DNA from: Bacteroidota bacterium
GTDB taxonomy: Bacteria; Bacteroidota; Bacteroidia; Sphingobacteriales; Sphingobacteriaceae
Reading direction: 5' to 3'
NCBI GenBank assembly: GCA_018828585.1
Contig: JAHJVW010000020.1
Coordinates: forward strand, 1 to 64,000
DNA: 64,000 bases
In this document: positions 47,884 through 48,781 of the stretch, piece after piece
Layout: every line of letters begins with the position of its first letter
Position numbering within the stretch: the stretch's first letter is position 1
Made by a program: the position numbers and the translations under genes
Notes under the pieces: generated by a model
The model's database searches: none
What the model was told of the DNA's origin: nothing
What the model saw: the letters and a program-made list of their open reading frames with translations, nothing else

Positions 47884-48459
47884 ATGGAAGTAGATAAAAT
47901 CAAAGAAAGTATCAAGAAAGCAGCGCAGGATCTCTTCCGTAAATATGGTTATCATAAAACCAGCGTCAACGAGATTGCTAAAAAGGCAAAAATTGCAAAA
48001 GCAACTATCTATAAATACTTCGAAAGTAAAGAGCTGGTTTTACATGCTATTTTAATGGATTATTTAAAAGTGAGTTTAAATGAAGTCATCCATAAGGACA
48101 GTAAAAATATCAGCAAAGAAGAGCATTTGAAGACACTTATTTTAAAAGTGAGTAAGCTTTCTTATACCGTTTGTAATGAGTTTATTGGTTGGGATTTTAT
48201 TCGTGAATCTACCAACGCACAAGGATTCTTAAAAGACCTTTCTGATGAACTAGAAAATCTGCTTTATGCCGAGTTTATGAGTATTGAAGAATTAAATGAT
48301 GATGAAACTTACCCCGAAAGGTTAAGATTTTTAATCAAAGCCAGCAAAAGCATCATCTTCTCTTTCGCATTTACCTCAGTTTCTGATGCCGATGTGAGAA
48401 AGAATTTTGTTTCCTTCCAAAAAGAGATTTTACCTTATTTGGTGAAGGCGGCATTGTAA
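47884..48459 (+). CDS. TetR/AcrR family transcriptional regulator
   Basis: A 191-residue repressor-type protein. Residues 4-50 form the TetR HTH (AAQDLFRKYGYHKTSVNEIA then KKAKIAKATIYKYFESKELV). The C-terminal ligand domain is all-helical and unlike any specific named regulator I recognise. The gap to the upstream lipoprotein gene is 1 nt, so it is probably part of the pheS transcript. Its targets are not evident. Confidence 0.9.
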   Translation: MEVDKIKESIKKAAQDLFRKYGYHKTSVNEIAKKAKIAKATIYKYFESKELVLHAILMDYLKVSLNEVIHKDSKNISKEEHLKTLILKVSKLSYTVCNEFIGWDFIRESTNAQGFLKDLSDELENLLYAEFMSIEELNDDETYPERLRFLIKASKSIIFSFAFTSVSDADVRKNFVSFQKEILPYLVKAAL

Positions 48460-48493
48460 AAAATATGTGAATGATCATCATTTTTCTATTTTT

Positions 48494-48523
48494 TGTACAT
48501 ATATTTGTACATCAAAAAGTACA
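48494..48523 (+). promoter_or_regulatory. Phased TGTACA operator overlapping the toxin-antitoxin promoter
   Basis: TGTACA at 48494-48499, TGTACA at 48506-48511 and AGTACA at 48518-48523 are spaced exactly 12 bp start to start, ending 3 bp before the antitoxin ATG. A perfect TAnnTTTG box (TATATTTG, 48500-48507) is embedded between the first two sites. This is a self-evident autoregulatory operator for the YefM-YoeB-type complex. Confidence 0.8.
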
Positions 48524-48526
48524 AGT

Positions 48527-48781
48527 ATGTTAACTACAACCATATCAGACTTTAGGAAAGACATCAAAAGTTATTTTGATAAAGTTTCTAAAAACTTTGA
48601 AACGCTGATTATTAATCGTGGAAAGGACAATGGCGTTGTGATTATGTCATTAGATGAATACAACTCTCTTTTAGCTACCAACCATGAGTTAAGCTCCTTG
48701 AAAAACGAAAGAAGATTAGATGCTGCAATCGAAAAGATTAATAATAAAGTAACTTTCGAAAAAGATTTGATAGAACCATGA
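48527..48781 (+). CDS. yefM: Type II antitoxin, Phd/YefM family
   Basis: An 84-residue antitoxin, with the start at ATG 48527 chosen because the operator-promoter lies directly upstream. The N-terminal DNA-binding Phd/YefM fold is recognisable in TTTISDFRKDIKSYFDKV, ETLIINRGKDNGVVIMSLDE and YNSLLATNHELSS, followed by a charged C-terminal tail that would wrap the toxin. Its stop overlaps the toxin start (ATGA). It should repress its own operon together with the toxin. Confidence 0.92.
   Translation: MLTTTISDFRKDIKSYFDKVSKNFETLIINRGKDNGVVIMSLDEYNSLLATNHELSSLKNERRLDAAIEKINNKVTFEKDLIEP

Follow-up and report, generated by a model that had tools for sequence, protein, structure and literature searches.

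The yefM-yoeB operon

The window, that is, the whole 64 000-nucleotide stretch of DNA that was analysed, carries an antitoxin gene followed by a toxin gene, with the start of yoeB overlapping the stop of yefM (ATGA) and a gene for a TetR-family regulator directly upstream of the pair (Table 1). The toxin belongs to the Txe/YoeB family according to both PF06769 and TIGR02116 (127.2 bits against a cut-off of 51.8 for the latter). It aligns without gaps to Escherichia coli YoeB over residues 1-84, and the YoeB catalytic residues E46, R65, H83 and Y84 are all kept. The antitoxin is assigned to the Phd/YefM family by PF02604, scores 20.7 bits against the subfamily model TIGR01552 (cut-off 20.8) and reaches 44.9 bits against the NCBI YefM equivalog NF008499, for which the cut-off is 121; it is therefore classed as a divergent YefM and not as an NF008499 equivalog. 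Its residues R10 and R31 align with arginines of E. coli YefM (2a6q), and these two positions are described as important for operator contact (PMC3303803). The preliminary description of this DNA had spoken of a toxin-antitoxin promoter, which is borne out by the family profile matches of both genes: the pair is a chromosomal YefM-YoeB (Axe-Txe) type II toxin-antitoxin operon.

Table 1 Features of the yefM-yoeB locus (positions in the window)
Feature	Position	Strand	Remarks
TetR-family regulator	47884-48459		Directly upstream of the pair; TetR_N 57.4 bits (cut-off 24)
Three-site operator	48494-48523	+	GTAC cores at exact 12-bp steps; read from sequence, phase kept in homologs
Site 1, TGTACA	48494-48499	+	Upstream site, about -18 to -13 relative to the predicted transcription start
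-7 box, TATATTTG (TAnnTTTG)	48500-48507	+	Sole exact + strand copy in the window
Site 2, TGTACA	48506-48511	+	Overlaps the -7 box; about -6 to -1 from the predicted transcription start
Predicted transcription start	48512	+	Placed from the box position
Site 3, AGTACA	48518-48523	+	In the leader, imperfect hexamer; about +7 to +12
yefM antitoxin, 84 aa	48527-48781	+	PF02604, 62.7 bits (cut-off 29.8)
yoeB toxin, 85 aa	48778-49035	+	PF06769, 137.8 bits (cut-off 27)

The antitoxin ATG (48527-48529) lies 3 bp past the last site, as had been noted before, and the start codon proposed there agrees with the N-terminus that is common to the homologs. A methionine stands a few residues before a common S-x-F-R (or S-x-A-R) motif in 79 of 80 named loci, the exception being L073, and the residues preceding this methionine vary among the loci, which makes ATG 48527 the likely start. 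A rival in-frame GTG at 48467, which would extend the antitoxin through the operator, does not fit this common N-terminus.

The promoter element has the form TAnnTTTG, which in Flavobacterium psychrophilum is described as the -7 box of sigma-A promoters and is placed at -12 to -5 (PMC9723704). Setting the box at those positions places the predicted transcription start and gives a predicted leader of 15 nt. The box had been pictured as nested between sites 1 and 2; it does adjoin site 1, but its last two bases (TG, 48506-48507) are at the same time the first two of site 2, so that box and site overlap. No clear upstream promoter element was seen near -33 at this promoter.

The operator array

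The three GTACA sites proposed across this promoter are present letter for letter and in exact 12-bp phase, the palindrome of site 3 being limited to its GTAC core. The array contains the paired-palindrome arrangement of GTAC-core sites 12 bp apart on a promoter, and the third site exceeds that pair. The pattern WGTACA-N6-WGTACA has three matches on both strands of the window, all at the operator, against an expected mean of 0.05, and none of 100 shuffles of the window reaches three. Single TGTACA hexamers are not enriched in the window (15 against a mean of 11.72, with 21 of 100 shuffles reaching 15). In the 3.58-Mb genome the triple GTAC-N8-GTAC-N8-GTAC occurs at one place, which is this operator; about 0.03 would be expected from the GTAC frequency of the window. 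The genome-wide rarity of the triple is nevertheless weak evidence, because a reversed-pattern control also gives one place, and the strong evidence for the array is its conservation in homologs.

A YefM regulon elsewhere in this genome is not claimed. TGTAC-N8-GTACA is found at five places in all, compared with three for the reversed control. Three places lie away from the operator: two fall within long open frames, and at the third (L282) the pattern is not spanned by any open frame of 100 codons. When one mismatch is allowed, the box-plus-two-sites pattern occurs at four places in all, against seven for the control, the three other places being imperfect. The genome does encode a second, divergent YefM/YoeB-like pair (L082 and L263, contig C81, approximately 11.6-12.1 kb, minus strand), the promoter of which has two sites, TGTACA and TGTACT, 12 bp apart. 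Cross-binding between this pair and the antitoxin of the window is possible.

Homologous loci

The loci compared were collected for their resemblance to this toxin or to members of its family, and the fractions given below are accordingly not estimates of prevalence. They comprise a named set of 80 loci, a family draw of 30 loci from 151 genomes, 29 new loci from a draw of 120 genomes from the phylum of the L073 genome (Billgrantia, Pseudomonadota), 28 new loci from a phylum draw of 296 genomes, and further loci from 100 chosen places and a few others. With the stretch of the window added to the 276 gathered loci, 277 were scanned, antitoxins being found by profile. Forty of the 277 were dropped because no antitoxin was recognised next to the toxin, and a further 28 because they exactly duplicated a kept promoter or had no start codon near the expected place. 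The final set consists of 210 promoter rows from 209 loci, 177 of them Bacteroidota-side (the window included) and 33 from Pseudomonadota. 'Bacteroidota-side' denotes every row outside the Pseudomonadota set and thus includes contigs of metagenome-assembled genomes labelled Ignavibacteriales, Melioribacteraceae and Chlorobiota, one labelled Thermodesulfobacteriales, and loci titled only 'bacterium'. The Thermodesulfobacteriales contig (L035) is short and carries a Bacteroidota-type three-site yefM-yoeB, which could reflect mis-binning or transfer.

Conservation of the 12-bp phase

Conservation of the spacing among homologs had been set beforehand as the test of the array, and the 12-bp phase is indeed kept. 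In each of the sets, neighbouring GTAC cores are most often 12 bp apart (120 cases in the named, 54 in the family, 25 in the phylum and 16 in the Pseudomonadota set), followed by 13 bp, with ten in the phylum set and eight in Pseudomonadota. Three or more cores at 12-bp steps are found in 61 of the 177 Bacteroidota-side rows (42/80 in the named set, made up of 79 loci plus L156, 13/49 in the family set, 5/47 in the phylum set and the window itself) versus none of the 33 Pseudomonadota rows, among which 15 have any 12-bp pair, eight a 13-bp pair and ten neither. Restricted to rows with at least two such sites, the comparison is 61/139 versus 0/15. The corresponding Fisher p values, which ignore relatedness, are 4.7e-6 for all rows and 4.4e-4 for rows with at least two sites.

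The fairest test was anchored on the box: 89 loci were picked solely by the sequence TAnnTTTGTAC, which covers the box and site 2 (three of them had more than one box, in which case the last was taken). Of these loci, 73/89 have a GTAC exactly 12 bp upstream and 56/86 have one exactly 12 bp downstream, whereas at most one GTAC occurs at each other offset from -20 to +30; both flanking cores are present in 42 loci and neither in two. After thinning to antitoxins less than 80% identical the counts are 10/18 upstream, 11/18 downstream and 4/18 for both. Nine of the 30 anchored loci that lack an exact site 3 have a one-mismatch core at +12, compared with zero to three such cores at other offsets from +6 to +21, where one exact core each is also found at +6 and +11; eight of the nine are AATACA, and the loci that carry them include many close relatives. 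A chance origin of the triple is rejected on account of this conservation of phase. A further candidate regularity, that the outer bases of the array are stricter than the inner ones, seemed clear in the 42 box-anchored three-site loci; after thinning to 17 it is weak (left T in 12/17, right A in 11/17), and it is therefore not put forward.

Site 3 is 3 nt from the ATG and within an A-rich stretch, and Bacteroidetes are described as lacking Shine-Dalgarno sequences and using Kozak-like ones (PMC6847099), so it might be read as the A-rich translation start context of Bacteroidota and not as an operator site at all. In the 61 rows that have at least three sites, however, the distance from the last core to the ATG ranges from 2 to 38 nt while the 12-bp phase holds, which ties site 3 to the array and not to the start codon; nor does A-richness predict a GTAC. 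An origin of site 3 in translation context is thus very improbable.

It is equally hard to credit the TetR-family regulator as the protein that binds the array, a role for which the adjoining position of its gene and a clear TetR_N match could be cited. A tblastn match to this regulator was obtained in six of 110 loci, namely the copy in the window, those in three relatives and a second copy for two of these, in flanks of at most about 1.5 kb and sometimes shorter, so that copies farther away or missing would escape notice. Even so, many YefM-YoeB loci have the array without this regulator, and its core is that described for YefM. The regulator is syntenic in at least three relatives.

Variation in the number of sites and the position of the box

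Conservation of the phase does not extend to the number of sites. At L001, L002 and L003 all three sites are present, whereas at L026 and L043 (both titled Pedobacter) and at L096, which have in common a neighbourhood of TetR, then yefM-yoeB, then cysE, sites 2 and 3 are present and site 1 is absent. At loci from Empedobacter, Faecalibacter and Flavobacterium, and at some others, just sites 1 and 2 are present. The proposal of three-site phasing is supported as regards the phase, which homologs keep, and the varying number of sites, with syntenic orthologs that have sites 2 and 3 alone, speaks against a strict version of it. A quick tree of 111 loci, thinned from 137 that have a good antitoxin and two or more sites, requires at least 13 changes between two and three or more sites; on the evidence of this tree and of the syntenic loci, site number is labile. 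The left base of site 3 is T in 25 of the 60 rows with exactly three sites and the hexamer is often imperfect, on which grounds site 3 may be weak.

Three-site arrays occur mainly in two groups of the tree, that of the window (33/64 rows) and another that is well separated from it (13/14 rows). Most three-site members of the window clade have a box that continues into the site (TAnnTTTGTAC), while in 11 of the 13 three-site rows of the second clade the TAC of the site itself begins the -7 box (GTACnTTTG); the latter form is also found at L003, a near relative of the window.

These observations bear on a simpler reading, in which the operator is a canonical two-site YefM-YoeB operator and the third GTAC has no separate role, being either a relic or a weak auxiliary site. 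Such a reading would accord with the two sites described for the E. coli and Enterococcus operators, with the Pedobacter orthologs that have only sites 2 and 3 in the same neighbourhood, with the loci that have only sites 1 and 2, and with the frequent imperfection of site 3. It does not account for the recurrence of both flanking sites at exact phase, far above other offsets, or for three-site arrays filling a second, separate clade with the box placed differently, and is considered rather unlikely.

Comparison with known operators

Both the core motif and its 12-bp step are known from the YefM-YoeB operator of E. coli, and the third site is the new part. In E. coli, YefM is reported to bind two TGTACA palindromes 12 bp apart, with the antitoxin as repressor and the toxin as a co-repressor that enhances binding; YefM-YoeB binds cooperatively, and its binding to the short repeat is disrupted when the spacing is changed (PMC3920265, PMC7730913). 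The E. coli operator resembles the present one in its TGTACA cores, 12 bp centre to centre, and in its overlap with the promoter (PMC7730913, PMC3920265), but has two sites, a long and a short palindrome, instead of three and a -10/-35 promoter instead of the Bacteroidota -7 box. Enterococcus axe-txe likewise has two TGTACA repeats 12 bp apart (PMC3760812, PMC7730913); it differs in having two sites, of which the long repeat is placed between -35 and -10 and the short repeat overlaps -10 only in part (PMC7730913). In Streptomyces yefM-yoeB a GTAC-centred pair at 12 bp, the first member of which overlaps the putative -10, is described, again with two sites (PMC3303803). The earlier remark that the phasing goes beyond the usual two palindromes thus agrees with the accounts of all three operators. 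The GTAC core is not universal to YefM-type operators, as Staphylococcus aureus SavRS is described with other palindromes (PMC5913840). Among other type II systems, CcdAB, Caulobacter HipBA and PaaR2 are similar in that the toxin-antitoxin promoter carries at least three repressor sites or an extended nucleoprotein array, although their repressors are unrelated or differently built and recognize other sites, so that the likeness is one of layout only. No three-site YefM operator was found in the open-licence literature searched, and older primary papers might show one. The array is a genuine extension to three sites, conserved in homologs, of the YefM-YoeB operator already known, and its proposed mechanism is modelled on that of E. 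coli.

Proposed mechanism and implications

The gene identities, the site positions, the conserved 12-bp phase and the overlap with the box are all read from the sequences, and what follows extends them by analogy. The array is probably an autoregulatory three-site operator at which three YefM dimers, helped by YoeB, repress the operon. One dimer would bind each GTAC-centred site through its N-terminal domain (R10 and R31), the 12-bp step would bring neighbouring dimers into interaction, and YoeB bound to the YefM tails would strengthen binding; dimer binding, cooperativity and the co-repressor role of YoeB are taken over here from E. coli. With site 2 built into the -7 box, site 1 just upstream and site 3 in the leader, full occupancy would cover approximately -18 to +12, including the box, the start and the leader, which would block RNA polymerase and switch the operon off. 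On degradation of YefM the array would empty and the operon be re-expressed. All three sites may be occupied at once, and the toxin:antitoxin ratio may set the outcome, both points being inferences; under conditional cooperativity, repression would peak at a certain ratio and be lifted by excess toxin.

More tentatively, many Bacteroidota YefM-YoeB operons might form a distinct operator class, with a continuous three-dimer array at 12-bp steps in which one site is fused to the sigma-A -7 box and the odd third dimer leads to a different, more graded response to the ratio; the case for this is nearly balanced, with the odds leaning slightly against it. A graded response would be expected from an odd third dimer because the S. 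aureus hexamer reportedly pairs two dimers; a hexamer of composition YoeB-YefM2-YefM2-YoeB and a tetramer are reported for that system (Xue 2020, cited in PMC7957083).

The steepness with which a toxin-antitoxin operon reacts when antitoxin is lost or toxin is in excess should depend on how many repressor sites its promoter has. A set of promoters of orthologs with a natural difference of one site, the 12-bp phase being constant, would provide a clean system for testing this, and the natural two-site orthologs in the same neighbourhood make the three-dimer operator class directly testable. The locus also illustrates the merging of the Bacteroidota promoter, which has an unusual -7 box, with a repressor site of the kind described in E. 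coli.

Other operator layouts

Three further arrangements were observed among the gathered loci. In a two-site group (L088, L101-L107, L110, L113, L115, L117, L118 and L129), drawn mostly from the family of the window, the pair lies upstream of the likely -7 box as judged by eye, and repression would have to work differently with the pair off the box. A separate set of YefM-YoeB loci (18 rows, e.g. L212, L213, L215, L224, L176, L181, L182 and L256) has GTAC pairs spaced by 13 bp; on a quick tree of 65 loci only four changes of spacing are needed, and spacing therefore follows the antitoxin lineage; the 13-bp spacing is present in both phyla. Finally, L012 has an array of four sites at exact 12-bp steps upstream of the antitoxin ATG.
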